Assembly (NCBI RefSeq): GCF_018398425.1
Contig: NZ_JADPMV010000001.1
Span: 62,001-126,000, forward strand
DNA length: 64,000 nt
From: Pseudomonas lalucatii
Lineage (GTDB): Bacteria > Pseudomonadota > Gammaproteobacteria > Pseudomonadales > Pseudomonadaceae
Direction: 5' to 3'
The notes beneath the pieces were generated by a model. It did no database searches, was not told the DNA's origin, and saw nothing but the letters and a program-made list of their open reading frames with translations. Numbering within the stretch: the stretch's first letter is position 1; each line of letters starts with the position of its first letter. The translations under genes were made by a program, and so were the position numbers. Positions 41,659 to 62,004 of the stretch are shown in pieces.

Positions 41659-43149
41659 TCAGTCGAACACGATGCCCTGGGCCAGCGGCAACTCGCGGGA
41701 GTAGTTGACCGTGTTGGTCTGCCGGCGCATGTAGGCCTTCCAGGCATCGGAGCCGGACTCGCGGCCGCCGCCGGTCTCCTTCTCGCCGCCGAAGGCGCCG
41801 CCGATCTCCGCACCGCTGGTGCCGATGTTGACGTTGGCGATGCCGCAGTCGCTGCCGGCGGCACTCTGGAACTGCTCGGCCTCGCGCATATCGGTGGTGA
41901 AGATGCACGACGACAGGCCCTGGGGGACCTCGTTGTTCAGGCGCAGGGCCTGGTCGAAGTCGCTGTAGCTCATCACGTAGAGGATCGGCGCGAAGGTCTC
42001 GTGGCGCACCACCTCGCTCTGCGCCGGCATCTCGACGATGGCCGGGCTGACGTAGTAGGCGTTCGGGAACTGCTCGGCCAGCTGACGCTCGCCGCCGAAC
42101 ACCTGGCCGCCCTCGGCGCGGGCCTTGTCCAGCGCCGCCTGCATGGCCTCGAAGCTGTGCTTGTCGATCAGCGGGCCGACCAGGTTGCCCTGCAGCGGGT
42201 GGCCGATGCGCACCTTGCTGTAGGCGACCTTGAGGCGGGCGACGATCTCGTCCTTGACCGACTCGTGGGCGATCAGCCGGCGCAGGGTGGTGCAGCGCTG
42301 GCCGGCGGTGCCGACCGCACCGAACAGGATGGCCCGCACGGCCATGTCCAGGTCGGCGCTGGGGGCCAGGATCATGGCGTTGTTGCCGCCCAGCTCGAGG
42401 ATGCTGCGGGCGAAGCGCGCCGCCACCTTGGGCGCCACCTCGCGGCCCATGCGGGTGCTGCCGGTGGCGCTGATCAGCGCCACGCGCGGGTCTTCCACCA
42501 GGGCGTCGCCGGCTTCGCGGTCGCCGATGATCAGCTGGCTGAGGCCCTCGGGGGCGTCGCCGAAGGCGGCCAGCGCCTGCTCGAACAGTGCCTGGCAGGC
42601 CAGGGCGGTCAGCGGGGTCTTCTCCGACGGCTTCCACAGCACCGCGTCGCCGCAGACCAGGGCCAGGGTGGTGTTCCAGGCCCAGACCGCCACCGGGAAG
42701 TTGAAGGCGCTGATGACGCCGACCACGCCGAGCGGCTGCCAGGTCTCGCGCATGTGGTGGCCCGGACGCTCGGAGGCGATGGTCAGGCCGTAGAGCTGGC
42801 GCGACAGGCCGACGGCGAAGTCGCAGATGTCGATCATCTCCTGCACTTCGCCCAGGCCTTCCTGGGTGATCTTGCCGGCTTCCCAGGACACCAGCTCGCC
42901 GAGGTCGGCCTTGTGCTTGCGCAGCACCTCGCCGAACAGGCGGATCAGCTCGCCACGGCGCGGCGCCGGCACGCTGCGCCAGGCCAGGAAGGCCTGCTCG
43001 GCGCGGGCGATCTTGGCCTGCACGGCGGCGCGGTCCTCGAGGCTGACCGAAGCGATCTGGCTGCCGTCGATCGGGGTGTGTACCGGGTAGTTGCCATTCT
43101 CCACTGCGTGGGCGCTAACCCCGAGGCGGCTCAGAAGTCCGTCAACCAT
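41659..43149 (-). CDS. amaB: L-2-aminoadipate semialdehyde/piperidine-6-carboxylate dehydrogenase AmaB
   Basis: AmaB (496 residues, ALDH7 family) oxidises 2-aminoadipate 6-semialdehyde, in equilibrium with piperidine-6-carboxylate, to L-2-aminoadipate with NAD(P) in the lysine (pipecolate) catabolic route. The aldehyde dehydrogenase catalytic Glu lies in LELGGNNA (near 265) and the Cys in GTAGQRCTTLRR (near 299), with NAFNFPVAVW-type cofactor motifs upstream. The start at 43149 (MVDGLLSRLGV) has GGAGAG upstream. It is divergent from a LysR gene, as in P. putida. Its neighbours supply steps before and after it, so it may also serve hydroxylysine breakdown. Confidence 0.93.
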   Translation of the reverse strand: MVDGLLSRLGVSAHAVENGNYPVHTPIDGSQIASVSLEDRAAVQAKIARAEQAFLAWRSVPAPRRGELIRLFGEVLRKHKADLGELVSWEAGKITQEGLGEVQEMIDICDFAVGLSRQLYGLTIASERPGHHMRETWQPLGVVGVISAFNFPVAVWAWNTTLALVCGDAVLWKPSEKTPLTALACQALFEQALAAFGDAPEGLSQLIIGDREAGDALVEDPRVALISATGSTRMGREVAPKVAARFARSILELGGNNAMILAPSADLDMAVRAILFGAVGTAGQRCTTLRRLIAHESVKDEIVARLKVAYSKVRIGHPLQGNLVGPLIDKHSFEAMQAALDKARAEGGQVFGGERQLAEQFPNAYYVSPAIVEMPAQSEVVRHETFAPILYVMSYSDFDQALRLNNEVPQGLSSCIFTTDMREAEQFQSAAGSDCGIANVNIGTSGAEIGGAFGGEKETGGGRESGSDAWKAYMRRQTNTVNYSRELPLAQGIVFD

Positions 43150-43303
43150 GGCTCTCTCCTGTATCTGGTCGTGGTTGAAAATTATGCTCGGGGTCAGTAT
43201 TAATCCTCCGCCTGGAGGGCAGCAAGCGAGCATTATTCGCCATGTCATTCCTTGGATTCATCGATTGGCCCATTCGCCGCCCTCAGCCTTCGCGAGATTT
43301 CCC

Positions 43304-44215
43304 ATGTCCAAACGCCTGATGCCGTCCATGGCCGCCCTGCAGTGCTTCGAGGCGGTGGCGCGCCACCTGAGCTTCACCCGCGCGGCCGAGGAGCTGTTCC
43401 TCACCCAGAGCGCGGTGAGCAAGCAGGTGGCGCAGCTCGAGGAGATGCTCCAGCACCTGCTGTTCCGCCGCATCCGCCGGCGCCTGCAGCTGACCCCGGC
43501 CGGCTCGCTGTACCTGACCGAGGTGAACAAGATCCTCAAGCAGGTGGAGATGTCCACCCACTACATCCTCTCCTACGGCGGCGAGACCGAGGTGCTCAAG
43601 GTGGCCACCCAACCGACCTTCGGCGCGCGCTGGCTGATCCCGCACCTCAAGGGCTTCGGCGCGGCCAACCCGAACATCCACCTGGATATCCGCAACGAAC
43701 TGGAACCCTTCGACCTGGTCCAGGCGCGGGCCGACGTGGTGTTCTTCTTCGGCCAGGGCACCTGGCCGGGGGCCGAATGCATCGAGCTGTTCGGCGAGCA
43801 GATGGTGCCGGTGTGCGCCCCGGACATCCTTCCCGCCGAGCCGCTGGTCAGCGCCCTGCAGCTCAGCGAGCGGGTGCTGCTGCAGTGCGCCTCGCGCCCC
43901 GAGGCCTGGCACGAGTGGTTCCAGGCCCAGGGCCTGCAGACCGAGCACAGCTACCACGGCCCGCGCTTCGAGACCTTCTACATGTGCATCCGCGCCGCCC
44001 AGTCCGGCTGCGGCGTGGCGCTGGTGCCGCGCTTTCTGGTGGAGGACGAACTGGCCGAGGGCAAGCTGGTGATTCCCTGGGACCACCCCCTGGCCAGCAG
44101 CGGCCGGCACTTTCTCGCCTACGCCGAGCACGCCGCCGAGGTGCCGAAGATCCGCGCCTTCGTCCGTTGGATCGAGGAGCAGGTGCGTCGCGAGTACGGC
44201 GCCGCCGGCCGCTGA
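43304..44215 (+). CDS. LysR-family regulator (GcvA-like), probable regulator of lysine catabolism
   Basis: The 303-residue protein has an N-terminal wHTH (residues about 8-66: ALQCFEAVARHLSFTRAAEELFLTQSAVSKQV) and a PBP2-type effector domain. It reads like the GcvA/AmpR subgroup. It is divergent from amaB across 154 bp and upstream of the aminotransferase-ydiJ genes. In P. putida a LysR gene also adjoins amaB. The co-inducer is unknown; 2-aminoadipate or a cyclic lysine intermediate is a reasonable guess. The 194 bp after it, up to the aminotransferase, contain a T8 run at 44266-44273 but no clear hairpin. Confidence 0.88.
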   Translation: MSKRLMPSMAALQCFEAVARHLSFTRAAEELFLTQSAVSKQVAQLEEMLQHLLFRRIRRRLQLTPAGSLYLTEVNKILKQVEMSTHYILSYGGETEVLKVATQPTFGARWLIPHLKGFGAANPNIHLDIRNELEPFDLVQARADVVFFFGQGTWPGAECIELFGEQMVPVCAPDILPAEPLVSALQLSERVLLQCASRPEAWHEWFQAQGLQTEHSYHGPRFETFYMCIRAAQSGCGVALVPRFLVEDELAEGKLVIPWDHPLASSGRHFLAYAEHAAEVPKIRAFVRWIEEQVRREYGAAGR

Positions 44216-44409: not shown

Positions 44410-45660
44410 ATGAGCCAGGCGCCGATCAGCAATGCCCTGGGCATCGTCCACCCCATCAGCCTCAGCCACGGCCGCAACGCCGAGGTCTGGGACGTCTCGG
44501 GCAAGCGCTATATCGACTTCGTCGGCGGCATCGGCGTGCTCAACCTGGGCCACTGCCACCCGCAGGTCGTCGCGGCGGTACGCGAGCAGGCCGGCAAGCT
44601 GACCCACTCGGCCTTCAACGCCGTGCCCCACGAGGGCTACGGCCGCCTGATGGAGGCCCTGGCGCGCTTCGTGCCGGTCAGCTACCCGCTGTCCGGCATG
44701 CTCACCAACAGCGGCGCCGAGGCGGCGGAGAACGCACTCAAGCTGGTGCGCGCGGCGACCGGGCGCACGGCGGTGATCGCCTTCGACGGCGGCTTCCACG
44801 GGCGCACCCTGGCCACCCTCAACCTCAACGGCAAGGTGGCGCCCTACAAGCAGAAGGTCGGCGTGCTGCCGGGGCCGGTGTACCACCTGCCGTACCCCAG
44901 TGCCGACAACGGCGTCAGCCGCGAACAGGCCCTGGCGGCCATGGAGCGGCTGTTCAGCGTGGAGATCGACCGCGCCGAGGTGGCCTGCTTCATCGTCGAG
45001 CCGGTGCAGGGCGAGGGCGGCTTCCAGGCCCTGGATGCGGCCTTCGCCCAGGACCTGCGGCGCTTCTGCGATGCCCACGGCATCCTGCTGATCATCGACG
45101 AGATCCAGTCCGGCTTCGGCCGCAGCGGCCAGCGCTTCGCCTTCAGCCGCCTGGGCATCGAGCCGGACCTGCTGCTGCTGGGCAAGAGCATGGCCGGCGG
45201 CCTGCCCCTGGCGGCGGTGGTCGGCCGCCGCGAACTGATGGATGCGCTGCCCAAGGGCGGCCTCGGCGGCACCTACTCGGGCAACCCGATCGCCTGCGCC
45301 GCCGCCCTGGCGACCCTGGAGGCGATGAGCGACAGCAACCTGGCGACCTGGGGCGAGCTGCAGGAAAGCACCATCCTCGCCCGCTACACCAGCTGGCAGC
45401 AGGCGCCCTGGGCGGCTGCCATCGGCCGCCTGAGCGGGGTCGGCGCCATGCGCGGCATCGAGCTGCGCAGCGCCACGGGCGGCCCCGGCAGCGAGCGCCT
45501 GGCCAGCCTGCTGGCCGCTGCCCGCGAGCAGGGCCTGCTGCTGATGCCCAGCGGCCAGCACCGGCACATCATCCGCCTGCTGGCGCCGCTGACCACCGAG
45601 CGGGCGATTCTCGACGAGGGCTTCGACCTCTTCGAGCATTGTCTGGCGCGGCTGGGCTGA
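44410..45660 (+). CDS. Class-III aminotransferase, probable L-2-aminoadipate aminotransferase
   Basis: This PLP enzyme (416 residues, fold type I, GabT/ArgD-like) moves an amino group to 2-oxoglutarate. Typical motifs are NSGAEAAENALKLVRA (near 97), FHGRTLATL (near 129), IIDEIQSGFGRSG (near 228) and the PLP lysine in LLGKSMAGGLPLAAV (near 259). Alone it would be called a 4-aminobutyrate aminotransferase. Its place between amaB/LysR and a D-2-hydroxyglutarate dehydrogenase, and the presence of hglS in the window, point to 2-aminoadipate as substrate (product 2-oxoadipate). It ends 4 bp before ydiJ. Confidence 0.85.
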   Translation: MSQAPISNALGIVHPISLSHGRNAEVWDVSGKRYIDFVGGIGVLNLGHCHPQVVAAVREQAGKLTHSAFNAVPHEGYGRLMEALARFVPVSYPLSGMLTNSGAEAAENALKLVRAATGRTAVIAFDGGFHGRTLATLNLNGKVAPYKQKVGVLPGPVYHLPYPSADNGVSREQALAAMERLFSVEIDRAEVACFIVEPVQGEGGFQALDAAFAQDLRRFCDAHGILLIIDEIQSGFGRSGQRFAFSRLGIEPDLLLLGKSMAGGLPLAAVVGRRELMDALPKGGLGGTYSGNPIACAAALATLEAMSDSNLATWGELQESTILARYTSWQQAPWAAAIGRLSGVGAMRGIELRSATGGPGSERLASLLAAAREQGLLLMPSGQHRHIIRLLAPLTTERAILDEGFDLFEHCLARLG

Positions 45661-45664
45661 GCCG

Positions 45665-48600
45665 ATGATCGCCCGCCTGCCGCCACCGGCACCGCCAGCC
45701 GCGCGCTATCGCGAGTTTCTCGAAGCCCTGGTGGCCGCCGGCTTCCAGGGTGAGATCGCCGTCGATCACGCCACCCGCACCGTGCTGGCCACCGACAACT
45801 CGATCTACCAGCGCCTGCCCCAGGCCGCGGTGTTCCCCCGCGACGCGGCGGACGTGCAACGCCTGGCGCGGCTGGCCGGCGAGGCGCGCTTTCGCCAGGT
45901 GACCCTGACCCCGCGCGGCGGCGGCACCGGCACCAACGGCCAGTCCCTGAGCGACGGCCTGCTGGTGGACCTGTCGCGGCATATGAATCGCATCCTCGAG
46001 ATCGATGTCGCGGGGCGCTGGGCGCGGGTGCAGGCCGGGGTGGTCAAGGACCAGCTCAATGCCGCGCTCCGGCCCCACGGGCTGTTCTTCGCCCCGGAGC
46101 TGTCCACCTCCAGCCGCGCCACCCTGGGCGGCATGATCAACACCGACGCCAGCGGCCAGGGCAGCTGCACCTACGGCAAGACCCGCGACCACGTGCTGGA
46201 GCTGCACAGCCTGCTGCTCGGCGGCGAGGCCCTGCACAGCCGGGCGCTGGACGCCGCCGAGCTGGCCGCCGCGTGCGCCCGCGGCGACCGCGTCGGCGCC
46301 GTGTACCGCTGCGCCCGCGCCATCGCCGACGAGCAGGCCGCGCTGATCGCCGCGCGCTTCCCGCCGCTGAACCGCTGCCTGACCGGCTACGACCTGGCCC
46401 ACCTGCGCGAGGCGGACGGCCGCTTCAACCTCAACAGCCTGCTGTGCGGCGCCGAGGGCTCCCTCGGCCTGGTGGTGGAGGCCAAGCTCAACCTGCTGCC
46501 GATTCCGCGCCACAGCCTGCTGCTCAACGTGCGCTACGCCAGCTTCATGGACGCCCTGGGCGATGCCCGGGCGCTGATGGCCCGGGCGCCGCTGTCGATC
46601 GAGACGGTGGACTCGCGGGTGCTGCAACTGGCCATGCAGGACATCGTCTGGCATGGCGTGGCCGAGTACTTTCCCGATGACCCGCAGCGCCCGACCCTGG
46701 GCATCAACCTGATCGAGTTCTGTGGCGACGACGAGGACGAGCTGGCGCAGCGGGTCGCGGCCTTCATCGAGCACCTGCGCATCGATCGCTCGGTCGAGCG
46801 CCTGGGCCATACCCTGGCCCGGGGCGCCGCGGCGGTGGCGCGGGTCTATGCCATGCGCAAGCGCGCCGTGGGCCTGCTCGGCAACGTGGCGGGGGAGGCG
46901 CGGCCGCAGCCCTTCGTCGAGGATTGCGCGGTGCCGCCCGAGCGGCTGCCGGCCTTCATCGCCGAGTTCCGCGCGCTGCTCGACGGCCATGGCCTGGCCT
47001 ACGGCATGTTCGGCCACGTCGATGCCGGCGTGCTGCACGTGCGCCCGGCCCTGGACATGAAGGATGCCGCCCAGGCCGCCCTGGTGCGGCCGCTCAGCGA
47101 TGCCGTGGCGGCGCTCACCCGCAAGTACGGCGGGCTGCTCTGGGGCGAGCACGGCAAGGGCCTGCGCTCGGCCTACGCGCCGCAGTTCTTCGGCGAGCTG
47201 TACCCGGCGCTGCAGGCGCTGAAGGCGGCGTTCGACCCGCACAACCAGCTCAATCCGGGCAAGATCGCCACGCCCCTGGGCGCCGACGCGCACCTGCTGG
47301 CAGTCGATGAGGTGCCGCTGCGCGGCGAGTTCGACCGGCAGATCGATGCGCGCATCTGGCGCAGCTACCAGGGCGGGCTGCACTGCAACGGCAACGGTGC
47401 CTGCTACAACCACGACCCCGACGACGCCATGTGCCCCTCGTGGAAGGCCACGCGCCGGCGCGAGCAGTCGCCCAAGGGCCGCGCCGCGCTGATCCGCGAA
47501 TGGCTGCGCCTGCAGGGCGAGCAGGGCGTCGACGTGCTGGCCAGCGCCGAGGCCATCCGCGCCGGCCGGGGGCCTGGGCTGTGGCGGCGGCTGCGCAACA
47601 GCCAGGGGCGCAGCCGCGACCAGGCGGATTTCTCCCACGAGGTCTACGACGCCATGGCCGGCTGCCTGGCGTGCAAGTCCTGCGCCGGGCAGTGCCCGGT
47701 CAAGGTCGACGTGCCGGAGTTCCGCGCACGCTTTCTCGAGCTGTACCACGGCCGCTACCTGCGCCCGGCCAAGGACTACCTGATCGGCTCCCTGGAATTC
47801 AGCCTGCCGTACCTGGCCCGCGTGCCGGGCCTGTACAACGCGCTGCTGGCGGCGCGGCCCGTGCGCCACCTGCTGCAGCGCGCCGGGCTGGTCGACAGCC
47901 CGCCGTTCAGCCGCCTGGACCTCGCCCCGGTGCTGGCCCGCTGGCGGGTGCGCACGGCCACCCCGGCGGCGCTGGCGGCCCTGACCGCGGAGCAGCGTCG
48001 GCGCAGCGTGGTGCTGGTGCAGGACGCCTTCACCCGCTACTTCGAGACGCCGCTGCTGGCCGACTGGATCGAGCTGATCGGCCGCCTGGGCTACGCCGTC
48101 TACCTGGCGCCCTACGCCGCCAACGGCAAGCCGCTGCAGGTGCAGGGCTTTCTCGGCGCCTTCGCCAGGGTGGCCCGGCGCAGCGCCGCCCGGCTGCGCG
48201 CCCTGGCCGAGCAGGGCGTGCCCCTGGTCGGTCTGGACCCGGCCATGACCCTGGTCTACCGCCAGGAATACCCCAAGCTGCTCGGCGCCGAGGCCTGCCC
48301 GAACGTGGCCCTGCCCCAGGAATGGCTGGCCCGGGTGCTGCCCGCCACGCCGGCCTGGGCCGGCGACGGCGGCGAGACCTACCAGCTGCTCGACCACTGC
48401 ACCGAGAAGAGCAACGCGCCGGCCGCCAGCGCCCTGTGGGCCGAGCTGTTCCGGCGTTGCGGCCTGGGCCTGGAGCAGCCGCCCAGCGGCTGCTGCGGCA
48501 TGGCCGGCACCTATGGCCACGAGCGCCGCAACCTGGCCACGTCCCGGGCCATCTACCGGCTGTCCTGGGCGCCCCGGGTGCAGGCCGGGGCCGGGGCAGG

Positions 48601-48721
48601 GCGCCTGCTGGCCAGCGGCTATTCCTGCCGCAGCCAGGTCAAGCGCCTGGACCAGCAGGCGCTGGCCCACCCGCTGCAGGCGCTGCTGGCGCAACTGCGC
48701 CGCTTCCAGGCTGGCCAATAG
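45665..48721 (+). CDS. ydiJ: FAD/iron-sulfur D-2-hydroxyglutarate dehydrogenase (YdiJ-type)
   Basis: The 1018-residue oxidoreductase has an FAD_binding_4 domain at about 50-250 (TLTPRGGGTGTNGQSL pyrophosphate loop), an FAD-oxidase C-terminal domain at about 270-530, and an iron-sulfur module with cysteines in CNGNGACYN (near 575) and GCLACKSCAGQCPVKVDV (near 665). A CCG-type heterodisulfide-reductase-like tail follows (GCCGMAGTYGHE, near 940). E. coli YdiJ of the same architecture oxidises D-2-hydroxyglutarate to 2-oxoglutarate. That product is what HglS makes, so the gene plausibly completes the lysine route. The start is 4 bp after the aminotransferase stop. Confidence 0.88.
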   Translation: MIARLPPPAPPAARYREFLEALVAAGFQGEIAVDHATRTVLATDNSIYQRLPQAAVFPRDAADVQRLARLAGEARFRQVTLTPRGGGTGTNGQSLSDGLLVDLSRHMNRILEIDVAGRWARVQAGVVKDQLNAALRPHGLFFAPELSTSSRATLGGMINTDASGQGSCTYGKTRDHVLELHSLLLGGEALHSRALDAAELAAACARGDRVGAVYRCARAIADEQAALIAARFPPLNRCLTGYDLAHLREADGRFNLNSLLCGAEGSLGLVVEAKLNLLPIPRHSLLLNVRYASFMDALGDARALMARAPLSIETVDSRVLQLAMQDIVWHGVAEYFPDDPQRPTLGINLIEFCGDDEDELAQRVAAFIEHLRIDRSVERLGHTLARGAAAVARVYAMRKRAVGLLGNVAGEARPQPFVEDCAVPPERLPAFIAEFRALLDGHGLAYGMFGHVDAGVLHVRPALDMKDAAQAALVRPLSDAVAALTRKYGGLLWGEHGKGLRSAYAPQFFGELYPALQALKAAFDPHNQLNPGKIATPLGADAHLLAVDEVPLRGEFDRQIDARIWRSYQGGLHCNGNGACYNHDPDDAMCPSWKATRRREQSPKGRAALIREWLRLQGEQGVDVLASAEAIRAGRGPGLWRRLRNSQGRSRDQADFSHEVYDAMAGCLACKSCAGQCPVKVDVPEFRARFLELYHGRYLRPAKDYLIGSLEFSLPYLARVPGLYNALLAARPVRHLLQRAGLVDSPPFSRLDLAPVLARWRVRTATPAALAALTAEQRRRSVVLVQDAFTRYFETPLLADWIELIGRLGYAVYLAPYAANGKPLQVQGFLGAFARVARRSAARLRALAEQGVPLVGLDPAMTLVYRQEYPKLLGAEACPNVALPQEWLARVLPATPAWAGDGGETYQLLDHCTEKSNAPAASALWAELFRRCGLGLEQPPSGCCGMAGTYGHERRNLATSRAIYRLSWAPRVQAGAGAGRLLASGYSCRSQVKRLDQQALAHPLQALLAQLRRFQAGQ

Positions 48722-48816: not shown

Positions 48817-50049
48817 ATGCACCCGCTGAGAGAGAGCCTGCACGAAGAGCTGCACGCGCGGCCGTCGATCTACTTCGACGGCCCGGCCCACGTCTACCAC
48901 TTCGCCCTGCTGGACCACGGCCAGTCGCTGGAGGGCATCGTCCGCCGCCTCGACGAGCTGGCCGACAACCCCGGCCGCGGCGTGCAGCGCCACGGCCTGC
49001 TGCGCATCGCCGGCCACCCCTTCAAGTGGGAGCGCCACAGCGAGTTCCTCTCGCTGACCTGGGTGGTGCCGCTGCAGCCCGGCGACAGCCGCTGGGCCGA
49101 GTTGCCGCAACCGCTGCGCGGCCTGCTCGACGCCCACCGCGAGCTGATCATCAACGCCCTGGTGATCCTCGTGGAAAACCAGCAGGACGCCGCCCAGGCC
49201 CCGGCCGGCTACGGCTTCAAGGACCCGGCCGGCTCCCACATCGGCGGCGGCGACGCCACGGTGTGGAGCGACTTCCGCCTCTCGGCCCAGGGCTTCAACC
49301 GCCTGCTGCTGGTCAACCGCGGCCTCAACGCCTACCGCCTGGGGCGCATGATCCGCCGCCTGGTGGAGATCGAGACCTACCGCATGCTGGCCTCCCTGGG
49401 CCTGCCGGCGGCCCAGGAACTCGACACCACCCTGCAGGAGCTGGACCGCGAGCTGATCCGCATCGCCGAGGGCAACGCCTGCGCCGACAGCGCCCAGGCC
49501 AAGGCCCTGCTCGATGGCCTCACCGCCCTGTCGGCGCGGCTGATGCGCTGCTCGGCGAGCAACCGGCCGCGCTTCAGCGCCACCGCCGCCTATGCGCAGA
49601 TCGTCTTCGAGCGCATCGCCGAACTGCGCGAGAGCCACGTCGGCGAGCATCAGCGCCTCGGCGTGTTTCTCGAGCGACGCTTCAAACCCAGCGTGCGCTA
49701 CTGCGCCGCCACCGAACAGCGCCTCGACCGCCTGGCCGCCGGCATCGCCAACCTCGGCGAACTGCTGCAGGCCAAGGCCCAGGTGGAAGTGGAGGAGCAG
49801 AACTCGAAGATCCTCGCAAGCCTCAACGCCCGCACCCACACCCAGCTGAAGATCCAGAAGGCGGTGGAGGGCTTCTCGCTGATCGCCATCAGCTACTACC
49901 TGATCGGCCTGCTGAAGATGACCCTGGAGGGCCTGGGGGCTTTGGGCTCGCCGCTGTCCGGCAAGGTGCTGTTCGCCCTGCTGGCGCCGCTGTTCCTGCT
50001 GACCCTGGTGCTGCTGGCGCGGCGCCTCAAGCAGGCGGCGCGGCACTAG
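48817..50049 (+). CDS. DUF3422 family membrane protein
   Basis: The 410-residue protein opens with HPLRESLHEELHARPSIYF, the characteristic start of DUF3422. A soluble N-terminal region is followed by long helical segments (about 190-340) and two C-terminal membrane helices (about 350-370 and 385-402) ending in a basic tail. The function is unknown. It follows ydiJ by 95 bp on the same strand and may be co-transcribed, so a link to amino-acid catabolism is possible but only positional. Confidence 0.85.
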   Translation: MHPLRESLHEELHARPSIYFDGPAHVYHFALLDHGQSLEGIVRRLDELADNPGRGVQRHGLLRIAGHPFKWERHSEFLSLTWVVPLQPGDSRWAELPQPLRGLLDAHRELIINALVILVENQQDAAQAPAGYGFKDPAGSHIGGGDATVWSDFRLSAQGFNRLLLVNRGLNAYRLGRMIRRLVEIETYRMLASLGLPAAQELDTTLQELDRELIRIAEGNACADSAQAKALLDGLTALSARLMRCSASNRPRFSATAAYAQIVFERIAELRESHVGEHQRLGVFLERRFKPSVRYCAATEQRLDRLAAGIANLGELLQAKAQVEVEEQNSKILASLNARTHTQLKIQKAVEGFSLIAISYYLIGLLKMTLEGLGALGSPLSGKVLFALLAPLFLLTLVLLARRLKQAARH

Positions 50050-50151
50050 GTTCTATACGAAAAGTGCCCGCGCTCGACGATTTTTCGTACAGAGCCCGGG
50101 GCAGGGCGGCTAGTGCCGCTGGGCACTTGCGGTCCCGCGGCGCGGAGAAAA

Positions 50152-50172
50152 CCCGCCGGAGCACCCGGCGGG
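50152..50172 (-). terminator. Terminator of the minus-strand two-gene operon
   Basis: On the minus strand CCCGCCGG, loop, CCGGCGGG is followed by TTTTCTCC. It lies about 28 bp after the stop of the 98-residue gene. It could also slow plus-strand read-through from the DUF3422 gene. Confidence 0.75.
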
Positions 50173-50199
50173 CTGTTCGTGCGCAGGTCGACGGCCGGC

Positions 50200-50496
50200 C
50201 TACAGCTGCAGGCAGGTCTTCCTGGCCTGGTGATTGCCGCCGAACGGCGAACACAGGCGCTGATGTACCCGGCTGAGGAAGCCGATCTCGAACGCCCGGC
50301 GCTGCGCCCCAGGGGGCAGCGCGTCGCGCTCGATGATCAGGTTGGCCCACAGCCAGCCGCTGTCGTCGTTGCTCAACCAGGCCTGGGCGCTGGCCACGCC
50401 CCGCTCGAAGGCCTCGTGGCAGTTCACCGGCCACTTGATGATCGCGCCGCGATGGCCGTCGTGGGTTGGCAGATGGCTGGTGCAGGGTCTATTCAT
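50200..50496 (-). CDS. Small protein, possibly QslA-like
   Basis: This is a 98-residue soluble protein. Its pattern (an early WPVNCHEAFERGVASAQAWL helix, a central LPPGAQRRAFEIGFLSRVHQRL helix) resembles my recollection of the QslA family of small quorum-sensing anti-activators in Pseudomonas. I cannot confirm this without a search. It overlaps the preceding 91-residue gene by 8 bp, so the two are translationally coupled. The operon has been separated from its leader by an IS element. Confidence 0.55.
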   Translation of the reverse strand: MNRPCTSHLPTHDGHRGAIIKWPVNCHEAFERGVASAQAWLSNDDSGWLWANLIIERDALPPGAQRRAFEIGFLSRVHQRLCSPFGGNHQARKTCLQL

Positions 50497-50764
50497 CGCC
50501 AGCCCTCCCGTGGGCCTGGGCCAACGAGCGGCGGTACAGCACCAGCACCTCGTTCAGCAGCGCGCGGGCGCTGTCGCAGGCCTCATGCAGCGGCCTCGCG
50601 CCGGGGTTGGACGCCTCCATGCGCGCCAGGATGGCGAACAGCCTATGTAGCATCGCCACCCGTATCTCGGCCGCCGCCTGGAAATGGCAGCCCTGGCCAT
50701 CGGGGCAATCGAGTGGTGCGCAGCGTTTGGGGAAGGGAACGACAACGGCGTTTAATCTAGTCAT
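50489..50764 (-). CDS. Small hypothetical protein, first gene of the C4-linked operon
   Basis: The 91-residue protein has a Pro/Cys-containing N-terminus (LNAVVVPFPKRCAPLDCPDGQGC) and a helical remainder. I do not recognise the family. The ATG at 50764 is now only 2 bp from the end of an IS3 element. Its original ribosome binding site (GGAGG) sits on the far side of the element at about 52010 and would have been 6 bases upstream. In the present state the gene lacks any visible ribosome binding site or promoter of its own unless the IS supplies an outward one. Confidence 0.65.
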   Translation of the reverse strand: MTRLNAVVVPFPKRCAPLDCPDGQGCHFQAAAEIRVAMLHRLFAILARMEASNPGARPLHEACDSARALLNEVLVLYRRSLAQAHGRAGDE

Positions 50765-50830
50765 GATGTAGTGGTCTACTGATCCCGGACACCGATTTAG
50801 GCGAAAATCCTCGCCATTAAGAGGTGTCCG

Positions 50831-51993
<1,163 letters not shown>

Positions 51994-52001
51994 CCACTAC
52001 A

Positions 52002-52081: not shown

Positions 52082-52090
52082 TTTCCTTAT

Positions 52091-52113
52091 GCTCCTTCGT
52101 GTATTTAAGGAGC
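52091..52113 (-). promoter_or_regulatory. Hairpin sequestering the leader ribosome binding site
   Basis: On the minus strand GCTCCTT, loop AAATACACG, AAGGAGC forms a 7 bp stem. The right arm holds the AAGGAG ribosome binding site of the leader ORF, and the loop/arm segment CACGAAGGA is also the predicted target of the C4 RNA. Confidence 0.7.
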
Positions 52114-52142
52114 CGTCACCCCACCTTCTCACGGGTAAGGGT

Positions 52143-52217: not shown

Positions 52218-52235
52218 ATAACTGCACGAGAAAAC

Positions 52236-52260
52236 AGCAGGCACAAAAAAAGCGCCTGCT
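52236..52260. other. Hairpin upstream of the C4 RNA
   Basis: AGCAGGCAC, A7, GCGCCTGCT forms a 9 bp stem with one G-T pair. It may terminate transcription entering from the cassette side, or overlap the C4 promoter; the sequence does not decide. Confidence 0.45.
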
Positions 52261-52308
52261 CTCGGCTATGGCGCTACCGCGCCTTCGTGGAGATCGGGTT
52301 CTCACGCC

Positions 52309-52332
52309 CGGTCACGGGATTGACCGTGACCG
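52309..52332. other. Perfect 9 bp inverted repeat
   Basis: CGGTCACGG, loop GATTGA, CCGTGACCG. It lies in non-coding DNA between the C4 RNA and the cassette array. A further hairpin or operator role is unknown. Confidence 0.45.
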
Positions 52333-52639
52333 GCGCACTCTAGCCCGGCGCCATGTGCAGGGCAAGCCCGAAGCAAGAAGGGCGTTTCGCCGCCACAACT
52401 TGTGCCGGCATTCCCCATTCGGGTAGCTTCAACCCAACGCAATGACGCACCCCGCAGGCAGGACGCCGGTTAGCTTTCCCCTGCTTGCATAGACCGTTTT
52501 CAACGGAGCCATCCGCCGATGAAAAAATGGCATGCCAACGCTTGCCCCTGGCTACCAATGCGCTCCCCTTGGTGCATAGCACCCCATCGCCCCCTGCTAC
52601 AAGCCGAAAGCCTCAAGATAGAGAGGGTGTTCTGGCGAC
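52333..52639. other. Non-coding stretch without recognised features
   Basis: Short open frames on both strands lack ribosome binding sites and family resemblance. I see no convincing gene, promoter or repeat between the 52309 inverted repeat and the paired hairpins at 52640. The composition falls toward AT near the cassette boundary. Confidence 0.5.
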
Positions 52640-52689
52640 GGTGGGGAATGTTACCCACCAAGTGGTGCGTTTAAACGCACCATTTGGTG
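52640..52689. repeat. Overlapping hairpins with a 34 bp palindrome before the first cassette
   Basis: GGTGGG/CCCACC (52640-52659, loop of 8) overlaps a long palindrome at 52656-52689 centred on TTTAAA, whose arms ACCAAGTGGTGCGTTT and AAACGCACCATTTGGT differ at one position. The two folds share bases and are mutually exclusive. It lies just before the boundary core of cassette 1 and could be an attenuator, an operator or a modified recombination site. Confidence 0.6.
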
Positions 52690-52699
52690 CCTAATTTTA

Positions 52700-52707
52700 G
52701 TTATGCC
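52700..52707 (+). other. Left boundary core of cassette 1 (GTTATGCC)
   Basis: GTTATGCC fits the integron crossover core (G/TTRRRY-like). It is the exact reverse complement of GGCATAAC at 53607-53614, at the end of the same cassette, as expected for the two halves of one attC in its circular form. Confidence 0.7.
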
Positions 52708-52740
52708 TCTCTTTAATCCGGCACCAAGGAACTGCTATTC

Positions 52741-53613
52741 ATGCCAATCTTTATAAGCTATTCACATGAAAATAAAGAGTTCGTTGACAAACTTGCTATG
52801 CAACTCGTGCATAGAAATGTGAGCGTATGGCTTGACCGGTGGGAGCTAAGTATTGGCGACTCAATAATTGACAAGGTGCAAGAAGCTGTTGATGGCGCGA
52901 GCGCCTTGCTTGTAATTATGTCTAAGGCTTCAATCTCTTCAGAGTGGTGCAAAAGAGAGCTTTCATCAGGATTCCTAAGAGAGCTCGAAGAGAAAAGAGT
53001 AGTTGTAATGCCAGTTTTGCTAGAGGATTGCGACATACCACTCTTTGCAAGAGGGAAACTGTATGCAGATTTTAGAAAAAACTTTGACGATGGTTTAAGA
53101 ACAGTAGTGGAAGGTGTCGCCAAAGTAACAAATCCATTTTTATCCCGAGCAAAAGAACCCGAGTACCATGTTGGCTGGTCAATCGACTGGGGAGATGTTA
53201 ATGGGCTATTTGCAATAATTCTCAACTTTGTTGAGCAAGCCCAAAACCAGCCATACACATGCCTTACCAATATCGAAATACTAGCATCACCAATCGCCAC
53301 CATTAAATATGAATCAACCAAGAAGTCGCAAGGCGAAGAGCATGCTAGAGCTTACATTATAAAATTAATAAACGAACATTTCCAAAGCCAGCCAGAACTT
53401 CGCCCGCTATTAGTAACAGAAAGAGAAAAAGTCGAACGATTGACCGTTAATGGGCCAGATACAGGCGAGGAATATCTCCTGCGAATTGGTGCTCGACGCC
53501 TTGGTGAGGATACTGGCAGAGATATATTGGTTAATACAACAAAACTTATTCTTCAATCATATCGGCACATGGAGGCGGTTCTAAAACAACCGCAACACCG
53601 AAATAAGGCATAA
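52741..53613 (+). CDS. TIR-domain protein carried on an integron-type cassette
   Basis: This 290-residue protein has an N-terminal TIR domain (residues about 1-135): FISYSHENKEFVDKLA opening, SVWLDRWELSIGDS box, and the SEWCKREL segment containing the WCxxE glutamate that is catalytic in TIR NAD-hydrolases. The C-terminal half (about 140-290) has no family I recognise and may sense or oligomerise. The gene is AT-rich compared with the neighbouring core genes, a sign of recent acquisition. Only 33 bases separate the cassette boundary from the ATG, and the TAA stop lies inside the attC core, both usual for cassettes. Bacterial TIR proteins often act in anti-phage defence; that role here is inferred. 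Confidence 0.88.
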   Translation: MPIFISYSHENKEFVDKLAMQLVHRNVSVWLDRWELSIGDSIIDKVQEAVDGASALLVIMSKASISSEWCKRELSSGFLRELEEKRVVVMPVLLEDCDIPLFARGKLYADFRKNFDDGLRTVVEGVAKVTNPFLSRAKEPEYHVGWSIDWGDVNGLFAIILNFVEQAQNQPYTCLTNIEILASPIATIKYESTKKSQGEEHARAYIIKLINEHFQSQPELRPLLVTEREKVERLTVNGPDTGEEYLLRIGARRLGEDTGRDILVNTTKLILQSYRHMEAVLKQPQHRNKA

Positions 53614-53646
53614 CAACTGGTATATGGACGCTCCTCACAAGCAGGA

Positions 53647-53834
53647 GTAATAGGGGACAGACCACGATTCTTCCGATCTCGTCTAATCTTTTGGCGTCAT
53701 TCCATGGAAAAGGAGTTTCCATATGCCGCGTCGAGCGCGGGTAATAGGGGACAGACCACGATTCTTCCGATCTCGTCTAATCTTTTGGCGTCATTCCATG
53801 GAAAAGGAGTTTCCATATGCCGCGTCGAGCGCGT
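53647..53834 (+). repeat. Tandem duplication of 93-94 bp
   Basis: Positions 53647-53739 and 53741-53833 are identical, with a period of 94. The unit covers the left repeat of the element through the first codons of the transposase (ATGCCGCGTCGAGCGCG), so the first copy leaves a second truncated start. Only the second copy leads into the full reading frame. Confidence 0.95.
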
Positions 53835-54515
53835 GTGCTACTACCGGGAGTCACGTTGCACCTGGTTCAGCGGGGGAACAATCGTTCGGCCTGTTTCTTC
53901 GCCGAGGAAGATTACTTGTTCTATTTGGAGCACCTTGCAGATCAAGCAAGAAAGCACGACTGCGCGATCCATGCTTGGTGTCTGATGACCAACCATGTTC
54001 ATCTGCTGTTGACCCCGGCCAAGACGGAAAGCGCCGGAATGCTGATGAAGGGGCTTGGCCAGCGCTATGTGCAATACATTAATCGTACGTATCGTCGCAG
54101 CGGCACGCTGTGGGAAGGTCGCTTCCGCTCCTGCTTGATGCAGGAGGAAAGTTATGTGCTGGCTTGCTATCGATACATTGAGATGAACCCGGTACGGGCC
54201 GGAATGGTGGAGCATCCGGCGGAATATCGCTGGTCGAGTTATCGGGTGAATGCCCAGGCCGAGCAATCGGCATTGATCAAGCGACATTCCTTGTACCAAG
54301 CGTTGGGTGAGGCGGATGGGGCACGGGCTGAGACCTATCGTGAGCTGTTTCGGCATCAGCTTGATCCTGGCTTGGTGGATCAGATCCGTTCAGTCACCAA
54401 CGGGAACTATGCGCTTGGCAGTCCAAGGTTTGCGGCAGAGGTGGAGCGCGTGCTGGGGCGGAGGGTGATCCGCGGAAAGCCAGGGAGACCGAAACAAGCT
54501 GCTGAGGCTGACTGA
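53817..54515 (+). CDS. REP-associated tyrosine transposase (Y1_Tnp family)
   Basis: The 232-residue HUH-type single-strand transposase has the HUH motif HVHLLL near residue 61 and the catalytic Tyr in ACYRYIEMNPVRAGMV near 118-131. The conserved opening is PRRARVLLPGVTLHLVQRGNN. The ATG at 53817 has AAAAGGAG at good spacing (in the second copy of a tandem duplication). Such enzymes process REP-like hairpins, and the flanking AATAGGGGACAG inverted repeats are the likely substrate. The reading frame is intact. Confidence 0.92.
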   Translation: MPRRARVLLPGVTLHLVQRGNNRSACFFAEEDYLFYLEHLADQARKHDCAIHAWCLMTNHVHLLLTPAKTESAGMLMKGLGQRYVQYINRTYRRSGTLWEGRFRSCLMQEESYVLACYRYIEMNPVRAGMVEHPAEYRWSSYRVNAQAEQSALIKRHSLYQALGEADGARAETYRELFRHQLDPGLVDQIRSVTNGNYALGSPRFAAEVERVLGRRVIRGKPGRPKQAAEAD

Positions 54516-54743
54516 AACTGTGGTCTGTCCCCTATTGTTCATCCCCTATTGTTTATGTCCCCTATTGTTCTATTGTTGCGGTCCCCTATTGTTGCGCTCT
54601 CCCAGTGAACAGTCACCACCGATTTCGGTATAGAACCGTGGTGCGGGGAGCGTCCATTACAGCACTCAAATCGCTCGCTTCGTTCACTGGTGCGGGCTAA
54701 AGCTAGTCCCGGTGAGCGTTAGAAACAGGAGGAATCCAAGTAC

Positions 54744-57522: not shown

Positions 57523-58944
57523 ATGAGCGTTCAAGCTGCCGCTAACCCGGATGCGCTGGTTAGCCCCGATGAGATCCGCGCGCAGTTCTCCCGCGCCATG
57601 TCGGCCATGTACCAGGCCGAGGTGCCGTTGTACGGCACGTTGCTGGCGCTGGTCGGCGAGGTCAACCGCGCTGCCCTGGCGCGCGAACCGCAGCTGGCCG
57701 AGCAGCTGCGCACCACCGGGGAGATCGGCCGCCTGGACATGGAGCGCCACGGCGCCATCCGCCTGGGCACTGCCGCCGAGCTGGCCACCATGCGCCGCCT
57801 GTTCGCGGTGATGGGCATGCAGCCGGTGGGCTACTACGACCTGGCCAGCGCCGGGGTGCCGGTGCACTCCACGGCCTTTCGCGCCACCCACGAAGCGGCC
57901 TTGCAGCACAGCCCGTTCCGCGTGTTCACCTCGTTGTTGCGCCTGGAGCTGATCGAGAATGTCGAGCTGCGCGAGCTGGCCCGCGGCATTCTGGCGCGGC
58001 GCAACATCTTCACCCCGCGCGCCCTGCAGCTGATCGAGCGGGCCGAGGCGGCCGGCGGCCTGACTGCGGCCGAGGCCGAGGAGTTCGTCCAGCAGGCCCT
58101 GGAGACCTTCCGCTGGCACCGCGAGGCGACGGTGAGCGCCGCGCTGTACCAGCAGCTGAGCGCGCAGCACAAGCTGATCGCCGATGTGGTGGCGTTCAAG
58201 GGGCCGCACATCAACCACCTGACCCCGCGCACCCTGGATATCGACGCGGTGCAGGCCGGCATGCCGGGCCGCGGCATCAACCCCAAGGCGGTGATCGAGG
58301 GCCCGCCACCGCGGCGCTGCCCGATCCTGCTGCGCCAGACCAGTTTCAAGGCCCTGCAGGAGCCGGTGACCTTCGTCGAGGCGGACGGCGGCGGCGCGCT
58401 GGGCAGCCACACCGCGCGCTTCGGCGAGATCGAGCAGCGCGGCGTGGCCCTGACGCCCAAGGGCCGTGCCCTGTACGACCAGTTGCTCGAGGCCACCCGG
58501 GCAATCGCCGGCGGCGCGCCGAACGAGGAGGGCGCGGCGGCCTACATGGCCACCCTGAGCCAGCAGTTCGAGGCCTTCCCGGACGACTACCCCAGCCTGC
58601 GCCGGCAGCAGCTGGCCTACTTCCGCTACTTCGTCACCGAGCAGGGCCTGGCGGCCAAGGGGCGTGGCGAACTGGCGGCGAATCTGGAGGGGCTGCTGGC
58701 CGCCGGCCATGTGCGGTGCGAGCCTTTGGTGTACGAGGACTTCCTGCCGGTCAGCGCCGCCGGCATCTTCCAGTCCAATCTGGGCGACAACGCCCGCGAC
58801 AGCTATGGCCAGAGCGCCAACCGCGAGGCCTTCGAGCACGACCTGGGCGCGCCGGTGCTGGACGAACTGGCGTTGTACGCCGAAACCCAGCAGCGCTCGC
58901 TGGCGCAATGCGCCGAGGCCCTGGGCCTGGCGGCGCTCGCCTGA
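57523..58944 (+). CDS. hglS: 2-oxoadipate dioxygenase/decarboxylase HglS (DUF1338, YdcJ)
   Basis: HglS (473 residues) is an Fe(II) enzyme that converts 2-oxoadipate to D-2-hydroxyglutarate with O2 and loss of CO2, a step of D-lysine catabolism in P. putida. The sequence has the DUF1338 hallmarks: an early PVHSTAFRATHEAAL block, AFKGPHINHLTPRTLDID with the metal-binding His residues near 227-237, and YEDFLPVSAAGIFQSNL near 405. In P. putida the gene neighbours amaB and LysR. Here an accessory insert of about 6 kb and other genes separate them. It is followed 33 bp later by the kinase-lyase fusion gene. Confidence 0.93.
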   Translation: MSVQAAANPDALVSPDEIRAQFSRAMSAMYQAEVPLYGTLLALVGEVNRAALAREPQLAEQLRTTGEIGRLDMERHGAIRLGTAAELATMRRLFAVMGMQPVGYYDLASAGVPVHSTAFRATHEAALQHSPFRVFTSLLRLELIENVELRELARGILARRNIFTPRALQLIERAEAAGGLTAAEAEEFVQQALETFRWHREATVSAALYQQLSAQHKLIADVVAFKGPHINHLTPRTLDIDAVQAGMPGRGINPKAVIEGPPPRRCPILLRQTSFKALQEPVTFVEADGGGALGSHTARFGEIEQRGVALTPKGRALYDQLLEATRAIAGGAPNEEGAAAYMATLSQQFEAFPDDYPSLRRQQLAYFRYFVTEQGLAAKGRGELAANLEGLLAAGHVRCEPLVYEDFLPVSAAGIFQSNLGDNARDSYGQSANREAFEHDLGAPVLDELALYAETQQRSLAQCAEALGLAALA

Positions 58945-58977
58945 ACCCGGGCCGGCCCACTCATGAAGGATGACGCA

Positions 58978-61900
58978 ATGAACGATCAGCACGCCCTGAC
59001 CGACTCGGCCCGGCTCGCCGCACTCCTGGCCGCTCACTACGGCCTGGAGGGGGACTGCGAAGCGCTGCCCGGCGAGCATGACCTCAATTACCGGGTGCGC
59101 GCCGCGGACGGCCAGCAGTACCTGCTGAAGCTGCATGGCGCGGACGGCCAGCCGCAGGTGCTGGCGATGCAGGTGGCGGTGCTCGAGCACCTGGCCAGCG
59201 TAGCGCCGCAGCTGCCGCTGTCGCGGCAGTTGCCCAGCCGGCAGGGCGCCATCCTCAACGCCGTGGAGCTGCGCGGGCCGCGCCAGGCGCGCCTGCTGAG
59301 CTGGCTGGACGGCACGCTGTGGGCCAAGGCGCCGGTGCATACGGCGGCAAGCTGCGCCAGCCTCGGCCGCCTGCTGGGCGAGCTGGACCTGGCGCTGCAG
59401 TCGTTCAGCCATGCCGGCTGCCGACGCGCCTACGACTGGGATATCGGCCGCGCCGAAATCCACCTGGACCACCTGGCGGCGATCGACGATGCGGACAAGC
59501 GTGGCGTGGTGCAGGGCATCCTCGAGCGCTTCGCCCAGGTGGTGAAGCCGGCCCTGGCGGACTGCCCGCGCCAGGTGATCCACAACGACGCCAACGACTA
59601 CAACGTGCTGCTGGACGAGCAGGGCGCGGTGAGCGGCCTGCTCGACTTCGGCGACATGGTGGAGAGCTGGCGGGTCAACGAGCTGGCGGTGGCCTGCGCC
59701 TACGCGCTGCTCGGCGCGGACGACCCCATCGCCGCCATCCTGGCGCTGGTGGAGGCCTACCACGAGGTCAACCCGCTGCTGGCCGGCGAAGTCGAGCAGC
59801 TGTTCGACCTGATCAAGACCCGCTACGCGGTGAGCATCTGCATGGCCGCCAGGCAGATCCGCGCGACGCCGGACAATCCCTACCTGCTGGTCAGCCAGGC
59901 CGATGTGTGGCGCGCGCTGCAGCGTCTGCAGCAGGAGAACCCGCGCCTGGCGACCCTGCGCCTGCGCGATGCCTGCGGCTTCGCCCCGGTGGCCGAGGCC
60001 GCCGCGGTGATGCGCTGGCTGGAGCGCAACGCCCACGACTTCGCCGCGGTGCTGCGCCCGGAGGTGGCCACGCCCAGGGTGCGGGTCTTCGACTTCAGCG
60101 CCGACGGCGCCGATACCGGGGCGATCGAAGGCCTGGACTGCGCCGGCATGCAGGGCTACATCGACGCGCAGATCGCCGCCGCGGGCGCCGATTTCGGCGT
60201 CGGCCGCTACGGCGAGCGGCGGGTGCTGTACAGCAGCGCCGCCTATGCCGGCGCTACGGCGCAGCAGCGGCGCGACACCCACCTGGGCATCGACCTGTTC
60301 GCCCCGGCCGGGGAGGCGGTGCATGCGCCGTTCGCCGGGGTGGTGGCGTGCGTGCACGACGATGCCCAGGACCAGGGCTTCGGCCCGACCCTGCTGCTGG
60401 AGCACCGCAGCGAGTGCGGCGTGCGCTTCTGGACCCTCTACGGCCACCTGTCGCGGGCATCCTGCGCCAAGCTGCGGGTCGGCCAGGCCCTGGCCCGGGG
60501 CGAGGCCTTCGCCCGCCTCGGCGACCGTGGGGAGAACGGCGGCTGGCCGACCCACCTGCATTTTCAGCTGGTCACCGACCATCTCGGCCTGCAGGCCGGC
60601 ATGTACGGCGTCGGCGTGGCACAGCACTGGCAGGTCTGGCGCGCGCTGAGCCCGGACCCCAGCGTGGTGCTCGGCCTGCACGCCCGGTGCGCGGTCACGG
60701 TGGCGCGCGACAAGGACTGGCTGGTGCGCCAACGGCACCGGCGCATCGGCCGCTCCCTGAGCATCGCCTACGGCCACGAGCCGCTGAAGATAGTCGGCGG
60801 CGAGGGCGCCTACCTGATCGACGAGCAGGGCAGGCGCTGGCTGGACATGGTCAACAACGTCTGCCACGTCGGTCACTGCCACCCGCGCGTGGTGCAGGCG
60901 GCCCAGGCGCAGCAGGCGCGGCTCAACACCAACGCGCGCTACCTGCACGACTCGCTGGTGGAATATGCCGAGCGGCTGACCGCCTTGCTGCCCGAGCCGT
61001 TGAACGTGTGCTTCTTCGTCAACTCCGGCAGCGAGGCCAACGACCTGGCGATCCGCCTGGCGCGGGCCTATACCGGCCGGCGCGACCTGATCACGGTCGA
61101 CCATGCCTACCACGGCCACCTGAGCAGCCTGATCGACGTCAGCCCGTACAAGTTCAACGGCCAGGGCGGCGCGGGCAAGCCGGAGCACGTCTGGGTCAGC
61201 GAGTTGCCCGATGCCTACCGCGGGCGCTTCCGCTACGGGCAGGCCGATGCGGGGGCCCGGTACGCCGAGGACGTCGCGCGCCAGATCGACGCCATGGCCG
61301 AGCAGGGGCGCAAGCCGGCGCTGTTCTTCAGCGAGGGCATCCTCGGCACCGGTGGCCAGCTGGTGGCGCCGCCGGGCTACCTGCAGGCGGCCTACGGCCA
61401 TGTGCGGGCCGCCGGCGGCCTGTGCCTGGCCGACGAGGTGCAGGTGGGCTTCGGCCGCGTCGGCAGCCATATGTGGGCCTTCGAGACCCAGGGCGTGGTG
61501 CCGGACATCGTCACCCTGGGCAAGCCCATCGGCAACGGCCACCCGATGGCGGCGGTGATCACCACCGCGGAGATCGCCAACGCCTTCGCCAACGGCATGG
61601 AGTACTTCAATACCTTCGGCGGCAACCCGGTGTCGGCGGAGATCGGCCTGGCGGTGCTCGACGTGATACGCGACGAGCGCCTGATGCACCGCTGCGCGGT
61701 GCTGGGCGAGCAGCTGATGGCGGGCGTGCGCGGGCTGGCGCAGAAGTACCAAATCATCGGCGATGTGCGTGGCATCGGCCTGTTCATCGGCATCGAGCTG
61801 GTGCGCGACCGTCAGACCCTGGAACCGGCGGCCGCGGAGCTGGACTCCATCATCGGCGAGATGAAGCGCGAGCACGGCATCCTGCTGAGCAGCGAAGGGC

Positions 61901-62004
61901 CGCTGCACAACGTGATGAAGATCAAGCCGCCGGCCTGTTTCAGCGCGCAGAACTGCCAGCAGTTCCTCACTGCCCTGGACCGGGTCCTGGCCCGCCTGGC
62001 CTGA
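58978..62004 (+). CDS. Trifunctional APH kinase, M23 peptidase domain and class-III aminotransferase-fold phospho-lyase; probable hydroxylysine kinase/phospho-lyase
   Basis: This 1008-residue three-domain protein starts at ATG 58978, chosen for AAGGA 7 bases upstream; ATG 58963 is also in frame. Residues about 1-350 are an APH-type kinase with [13 protein letters not shown] (catalytic Asp and Asn) and LLDFGD. Residues about 390-560 are an M23/LytM metallopeptidase domain with all metal and catalytic residues: HLGID (near 435), LYGHLS, and HLH (near 526-528). Residues about 580-1008 are a class-III aminotransferase with [22 protein letters not shown] and PLP lysine in LGKPIGNGH (near 849). No signal peptide is present, so it is cytoplasmic. 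Kinase plus this lyase branch matches hydroxylysine (or ethanolamine) phosphorylation followed by phospho-elimination. Confidence 0.88.

Follow-up and report, generated by a model that had tools for sequence, protein, structure and literature searches.

A lysine degradation locus of the 2-aminoadipate type in Pseudomonas lalucatii, without an AmaA ortholog and with a candidate hydroxylysine kinase-lyase

Gene content of the locus

The stretch of DNA analysed here, referred to as the window, consists of 64,000 nucleotides of Pseudomonas lalucatii (assembly GCF_018398425.1, contig NZ_JADPMV010000001.1) and corresponds to C1:62001-126000 in a genome of 4.58 Mb (G000). Between positions 41659 and 62004 it harbours genes for the conversion of 2-aminoadipate semialdehyde (AASA) or L-piperidine-6-carboxylate (P6C) to 2-oxoglutarate, together with a gene encoding a fusion of a kinase and a phospho-lyase. 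A preliminary description of the window had placed five enzymes of one route within 20 kb, and all five were found there, encoded by full-length genes and passing the cut-offs of their NCBIfam models, on which ground misread open reading frames or an artefact were rejected as the source of the locus. The GC-frame gene calling used was simple and misplaced or missed some genes (it set antisense reading frames over the fusion and passed over both a second transporter permease in L133 and the LysR gene in locus L142), and the gene names relied on here come from HMM or BLAST searches.

Four of the enzymes, all in this single locus and above their curated cut-offs, make up the tail of the route. 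The gene amaB, for the P6C/AASA dehydrogenase, lies on the minus strand at 41659–43248 (NF050084, 833 bits, cut-off 730; PF00171, 5.6e-130) and its start codon is uncertain, a later ATG being possible. On the plus strand follow the genes for a class III 2-aminoadipate transaminase (AAT; 44410–45660; NF049976, 739 bits, cut-off 650), for the D-2-hydroxyglutarate dehydrogenase YdiJ (45665–48721; NF049975, 1534 bits, cut-off 1350) and, further downstream, for the 2-oxoadipate dioxygenase/decarboxylase HglS (57523–58944; NF049974, 768 bits, cut-off 550; PF07063, 1.7e-163). In this tail AmaB would convert AASA/P6C to 2-aminoadipate, the transaminase would form 2-oxoadipate, and HglS and YdiJ would carry this over D-2-hydroxyglutarate to 2-oxoglutarate. 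It is the established 2-aminoadipate route of Pseudomonas, for which the HglS chemistry is described in PMC7286885 and the AmaA/AmaB branch in PMC12930750, and, as the preliminary description held, the block is complete in the window.

The fifth gene, at 58963–62004 on the plus strand, encodes the kinase-lyase fusion of 1013 aa (NF004799, PRK06148, 1374 bits, cut-off 1128), a member of a subfamily named only "hypothetical protein". The gap between the end of hglS (58944) and the fusion start is 18 or 33 bp on the same strand, so close that the two genes probably form one operon, and co-regulation within the locus may be expected.

Divergent from amaB and beside it, where the preliminary description had seen one, lies a LysR-family regulator gene (43304–44215, plus strand) with HTH_1 and LysR_substrate domains. 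When 17 hglS loci from 16 relatives, chosen by hand and not at random, were examined, amaA, amaB and hglS were called together in nine, eight of these with lysR between, and in 8/17 the gene calls place a LysR homologue (71–76%) between amaB and the part with hglS; in the remaining loci hglS is placed elsewhere or a different part of the block is visible. The order amaB-lysR-AAT-hglS matches G018 and the order AAT-ydiJ-hglS matches G012.

A DUF3422 gene follows ydiJ (48817–50049, plus strand; PF11902, 1.5e-118). Using tblastn it was also found adjoining AAT/YdiJ/HglS genes in G070 (L157:13618-14847) and G012 (L138:10504-11712), as it does in G000, and it is possibly linked to the lysine route. 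Downstream of it an insertion region with an integrase/rve gene, a TIR gene and an IS200-like transposase gene (50100–54666, limits approximate, no strand assigned) separates the two blocks, so that the notion of a split cluster holds; the alignment to the relative G148 breaks here. The TIR-domain protein, encoded at 52741–53613 between the two transposase genes, has a low third-position GC (0.37), and in PADLOC it matched several models for TIR defence, each only in part.

A lysine-6-dehydrogenase-like gene and the absence of AmaA

The absence of amaA from the window, noted previously, was confirmed and extended to the whole genome at the ortholog level. In a survey of 149 genomes of the genus, AmaA was counted at E≤1e-120 with a query that is a true AmaA (NF050086, 733 bits, cut-off 600) and HGLS was defined by PF07063; at most 11 AmaA candidates were scored per genome, and every candidate for G000 and G148. 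AmaA was found in 127 genomes and HGLS in 129, the two occurring together in 127 and both being absent from 20, with no genome having AmaA without HGLS and only two, G000 and G148, having HGLS without AmaA. Among the 129 HGLS matches 12 are short and weaker, and when only full-length HGLS was counted both genes were present in 115 genomes, the same two exceptions remained and 12 genomes had AmaA without a full-length HGLS. In G000 no match reached 1e-120, the best of 42 candidates giving 1.1e-39 at 33% identity, and the best AmaA-like protein of G148 is 31% identical; both are at paralog level as compared with 62–100% in AmaA-bearing genomes. Two of the genomes with no AmaA match were identified by elimination as G148 and G158, G148 also having been shown directly. 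The usual head of the route, from D-lysine over pipecolate to P6C, would thus be broken at the AmaA step.

The cluster runs on past the window (locus L133) with an amino-acid ABC transporter, an Lrp/AsnC regulator and, divergent, a lysine-6-dehydrogenase-like gene, which together occupy G000:C1:126637-131592 and are followed by an Orn/Lys/Arg-type decarboxylase. The best models for the transporter are HisP, a lysine/arginine/ornithine substrate-binding protein and ArtQ, each under its own cut-off. The dehydrogenase-like gene (L133:4483-5592, C1:130483-131592), situated 4.5 kb outside the window and 6.5 kb past the fusion, encodes 370 aa with saccharopine-dehydrogenase NADP-binding and C-terminal domains, and its product matches the structure 3ABI, named L-lysine 6-dehydrogenase in PMC10413350, at 2e-25. 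The gene is rare, occurring at E≤1e-30 in 3/149 genomes of the genus (G000, G148 and G070) and at 1e-40 in 46 of the 369 genomes of a class sample, G000 included. In 33 of 35 loci fetched from the class sample an AmaB homologue (49–67% identity) was found on the same strand, within 248 bp in 31 of them; the 35 are not a random sample, 10 of the 45 other genomes with a match, mostly weaker ones, being left unfetched. This amounts to strong guilt by association for a conversion of L-lysine to P6C by the dehydrogenase-like protein. Since this rare gene is present in both genomes with HGLS and without AmaA, and adjoins AmaB so regularly elsewhere, lysine probably enters the route here, and as the principal point of entry for lysine the gene is to be preferred to the kinase-lyase.

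The preliminary description had taken the kinase-lyase to be the entry enzyme in the window. In its strictest form this would make the fusion the only entry and the route one for hydroxylysine alone, a reading in line with the missing AmaA ortholog and with the fusion being the only AASA-forming candidate found inside the window. However, the dehydrogenase-like gene stands in the same locus and is coupled to AmaB elsewhere, and G070 has the block and the dehydrogenase-like gene with no match to the fusion kinase at 1e-20. A sole entry through the fusion was rejected on account of the dehydrogenase-like gene and is regarded as very improbable.

The locus of G070 has the order dnaQ, amaB, lysR, AAT, DUF3422, hglS, transporter, Lrp, dehydrogenase-like gene, decarboxylase, the part AAT-DUF3422-hglS being uninterrupted by the insertion region. 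In this genome amaA is located elsewhere, and no ydiJ was found in the stretch fetched. The arrangement suggests an earlier state of the locus, and because G070 holds the dehydrogenase-like gene without the fusion, the former is part of the locus in its own right; the fusion would then have arrived later.

The three-domain fusion and its relatives

The preliminary description had read the fusion as an APH kinase joined to a class III phospho-lyase, and both of these domains were found, but a third domain between them had been missed. The kinase domain (residues 1–340, 58963–59982, plus strand) matches PF01636 (APH) at residues 37–267 (1.1e-21). It is followed by an M23 zinc-peptidase domain (residues 341–590, 59983–60732, plus strand) matching PF01551 (Peptidase_M23) at residues 439–538 (2.3e-14, cut-off passed), and by a PLP phospho-lyase domain (residues 591–1013, 60733–62004, plus strand) with a match to 6TOR and to the class III aminotransferase Pfam family at residues 607–1009. 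Start codons are present at 58963 and 58978. The ATG at 58978 is probably the real start, since AAGGA (58966–58970) precedes it and P0001, the top hit when proteins were searched with the fusion (Pseudomonas benzenivorans, full length, 91% identical), begins at this second ATG.

Members of the APH family carry HxD....N and DFG-type catalytic motifs and M23 metallopeptidases bind their metal through HxxxD and HxH, and all four motifs are present in the fusion. Residue conservation was read off tblastn alignments, without a motif filter, of 82 loci (80 genomes ranging from alphaproteobacteria to Chloroflexota and Thorarchaeota, together with G071 and G083, two other Pseudomonas). In the kinase D209, N214, D228, G230 and D231 are kept in 82/82 loci, F229 in 81 and H207 in 74, with Y in the other eight. 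The predicted M23 metal ligands H440, D444, H531 and H533, as well as H495, are identical in all 82, H495 being kept in 43/44 sequences of alignment A1. In the lyase, K854, P855 and G857 are found in all 81 loci covering this part, N858 and G859 in 80 and H860 in 79; the PLP lysine sits in a GKPxGNGHP stretch, which, in our reading of the alignments and with no curated rule behind it, may mark phospho-lyases.

The lyase part matches 6TOR, the human ethanolamine-phosphate phospho-lyase, at 1.5e-147 and with Foldseek rank 1 (2.2e-39), and the 50 Foldseek matches listed are confined to this part. For the kinase one solved chain was matched, a homoserine kinase (4.6e-07), and the M23 part matches M23 structures at 4.6e-05 to 5.9e-05. 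An AlphaFold2 model built from 44 sequences has a mean pLDDT of 86.8. The fusion gave no match in PADLOC. The M23 domain appears to sit in a small-molecule enzyme, and the fusion is probably cytosolic.

Searching relatives with the NF004799 profile gave matches to ordinary class III aminotransferases everywhere, with 1/29 genomes above the cut-off. No M23 match was found in a kinase-lyase of 970 aa from G018, and split kinase/lyase pairs fetched from other Pseudomonas gave no match to the middle part of the fusion. The split pairs (L121, L122, L123, L124, L126, L129 and others) share as neighbours a short-chain dehydrogenase/reductase (SDR), a GntR/FCD regulator and an SBP_bac_8 binding protein, families assigned from L121 only. 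Fusions of 970–1085 aa without M23 (L118, L130) lie near agmatine deiminase-like genes, and L130 also near an N-carbamoylputrescine amidase-like gene, these neighbours being recognised by eye on the first residues of their sequences.

In a tree of 79 proteins the window fusion and P0001 fall inside an alphaproteobacterial clade (SH-aLRT 100 with a 20-row set, 88 with a 19-row set), whereas those of G071 and G083 branch elsewhere; the tree was made by a quick method with a midpoint root and contains 24 rows of unusual letter make-up. This points to horizontal acquisition of the fusion from alphaproteobacteria. On a rhizobial plasmid (L112) the gene order is LacI regulator, substrate-binding protein, permease, SDR and fusion, while in G071 the fusion has an Lrp regulator, a substrate-binding protein and permeases as neighbours. 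In both cases the binding protein belongs to the SBP_bac_3 family, and its highest-scoring model is TIGR01096 (lysine/arginine/ornithine), whose cut-off it does not reach.

The nearest relative fetched, G148, is the sole other genome among the 149 with fusion and hglS adjacent (coordinates compared by eye), and 6.1 kb around mscS-hglS-fusion align at 95.7% nucleotide identity. Two deletions were found in it: the first has taken out ydiJ along with the greater part of the DUF3422 gene, and the second cuts at the domain boundary and takes away the lyase (window 60752–62061). Both look precise (L113:13176-14927, L114), with a stop codon preceding the lyase junction. Assembly gaps as their cause were rejected, there being no N, a single contig and alignable flanks on both sides, with a residual possibility of assembly error. 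No YdiJ match at 1e-30 was obtained in the whole genome of G148, and the closest protein to the lyase that it has elsewhere is 33% identical. A YdiJ match at 1e-30 is missing from G083 as well, a genome with both AmaA and HGLS, so G148 is not alone in this loss; in G083 D-2-hydroxyglutarate may be oxidised by a different enzyme.

With P0001 as outgroup the kinase domain shows 25 own changes in G148 compared with 5 in the window, and the M23 part 6 compared with 2. The dN/dS between G000 and G148, based on few changes per gene, is 0.38 for the kinase and 0.14 for the M23 part, and 0.05–0.17 for hglS, mscS, amaB, AAT, LysR and the dehydrogenase-like gene. Given the difference in kinase changes the window copy looks constrained and in use, the G148 copy looks broken, and the other genes compared look kept in both strains.

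These observations bear on the proposal of a locus in decay, a once complete lysine cluster that has been disrupted by insertions and deletions and in which the fusion is a passenger. The transposase and TIR genes splitting the window cluster, the missing AmaA and the losses in G148 would fit this. Against it stand the five full-length enzyme genes above their cut-offs, the low dN/dS of the compared genes and the few changes in the window kinase, and the loss of YdiJ says little when G083 shows the same. Decay is judged unlikely.

Substrate of the fusion and comparison with known systems

The reading that we favour, at somewhat better than even, is a 2-aminoadipate-type lysine degradation locus with an exchanged entry, in which the dehydrogenase-like protein acts on lysine and the fusion on 5-hydroxylysine, a building block of collagen. 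The alphaproteobacterial kinase-M23-phospho-lyase would have been placed directly behind hglS as a second entry, its kinase phosphorylating 5-hydroxylysine, or a closely related basic amino acid with a hydroxyl group, and its lyase eliminating phosphate and ammonia to give AASA. For the substrate itself we lean, modestly, towards hydroxylysine or such a relative on the following grounds: AASA, which hydroxylysine would be expected to yield, is what the AmaB of this locus takes as substrate; the fusion has become established directly after hglS in the one lineage of the genus sample that has HGLS but no AmaA; and near the fusions of L112 and G071 lie binding proteins with a lysine/arginine/ornithine model as the best, though below its cut-off.

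Several points weigh against this assignment. The closest solved relative of the lyase acts on phosphoethanolamine. According to PMC12930750, which refers to Friede and Henderson (1976), the breakdown of 5-hydroxylysine in P. fluorescens proceeds through the monooxygenase and racemase pathways, so that a route by way of a kinase would differ from the one known in pseudomonads. The preliminary description had proposed co-occurrence in other genomes as a check, and the outcome was mostly negative: neither AmaB, AAT, YdiJ nor HglS was found near the fusion in any of the 80 other loci (flanks of at most 10 kb, less where the contig is small), in five loci of the class sample or in the two other Pseudomonas (G071 and G083), and G148, which shares the adjacency, has lost the lyase. 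The adjacency of hglS and fusion is a single lineage event. AmaB above cut-off is present in 0/4 fusion-bearing gammaproteobacteria outside the genus; in 36/54 fusion-bearing genomes compared with 1/14 controls it is present, figures without a matched background from which nothing is concluded. An SDR common to the rhizobial and split-pair neighbourhoods (34% identical) is not explained by a plain hydroxylysine route, and since the transporter and Lrp occur in G070 without the fusion they are silent on its substrate here. The retention of the other genes in G148 despite the loss of the lyase indicates that the lysine part is independent of the fusion. For the lysine branch, the dehydrogenase-like protein gave no NCBIfam match at 1e-20.

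Routes of an amino-alcohol kinase and a phospho-lyase are known in Pseudomonas from older biochemistry, and the fusion could be such an enzyme for ethanolamine or 1-amino-2-propanol, yielding an aldehyde and standing merely behind hglS in a locus of plain lysine degradation via the dehydrogenase-like enzyme. The ethanolamine-phosphate enzyme as closest structure and the unlinked 80 loci speak for this, as does G148, where amaB, AAT, hglS and the dehydrogenase-like gene are kept (dN/dS 0.06–0.17) after the loss of a lyase that the lysine part evidently does not need. The SBP_bac_3 proteins in two separate lineages and the position of the fusion exactly behind a gene of the AASA route, in the one lineage with HGLS but no AmaA, are harder to reconcile with it, and we consider an amino-alcohol substrate rather unlikely, although less so than decay of the locus.

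An extension of the hydroxylysine reading would have the fusion serve as a complete entry module for hydroxylysine bound in peptides or amides: the amino acid would be freed at the M23 zinc site and phosphorylated by the kinase, and the lyase would feed AASA to AmaB and HglS in place of the pipecolate entry. This lineage would then hold the first bacterial pathway with known genes that leads from an amino acid of collagen to 2-oxoglutarate, a reading held to be improbable.

In the open-access literature searched no paper was found on a bacterial hydroxylysine kinase-lyase, nor any on the fusion in an AmaA-less lysine locus, on the swap to a dehydrogenase-like entry or on the kept M23 zinc site. 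The type of fusion is an older observation and not new: in 2012 bacterial bi- and trifunctional kinase-lyase proteins reportedly gave Veiga-da-Cunha et al. the clue to the human hydroxylysine kinase and two phospho-lyases. Members of the family occur across numerous phyla as well as in some archaea, and its curated model names no substrate, whereas its presence here in a defined catabolic locus without the usual entry enzyme allows a sharp substrate prediction. If the prediction is true, it would provide genes for bacterial hydroxylysine breakdown and a name for a large family now called only aminotransferase/phosphotransferase. Replacement of AmaA by a lysine-6-dehydrogenase-like enzyme would be a clean exchange of the entry step with the tail kept. 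The locus is real and coherent, a variant of a known catabolic system, and hydroxylysine is the bold and testable claim.

When compared with known systems, the locus shares with the Pseudomonas 2-aminoadipate (pipecolate) branch AmaB, the transaminase, HglS and YdiJ, all of the same curated families, but differs in that its genome lacks AmaA and two other candidates for forming AASA/P6C occur in the locus. The dehydrogenase-like protein resembles L-lysine 6-dehydrogenase (3ABI, PH1688), acting with an AASA dehydrogenase, in size, in its saccharopine-dehydrogenase domains and in the strong genetic link to AmaB, although it matches the solved enzyme at only 2e-25 and its activity on lysine is a prediction. 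The fusion is a member of PRK06148 and, by its M23 domain, differs from the 970-aa protein of G018, which we take by its length to be of the PRK06149 type. With the mammalian pair HYKK/AGPHD1 and AGXT2L2 it has in common an APH-type kinase and a class III phospho-lyase (6TOR, the ethanolamine-phosphate enzyme and not PHYKPL, being the only human protein compared), but in the window the two activities are predicted to reside in one protein instead of two, with an additional M23 domain.

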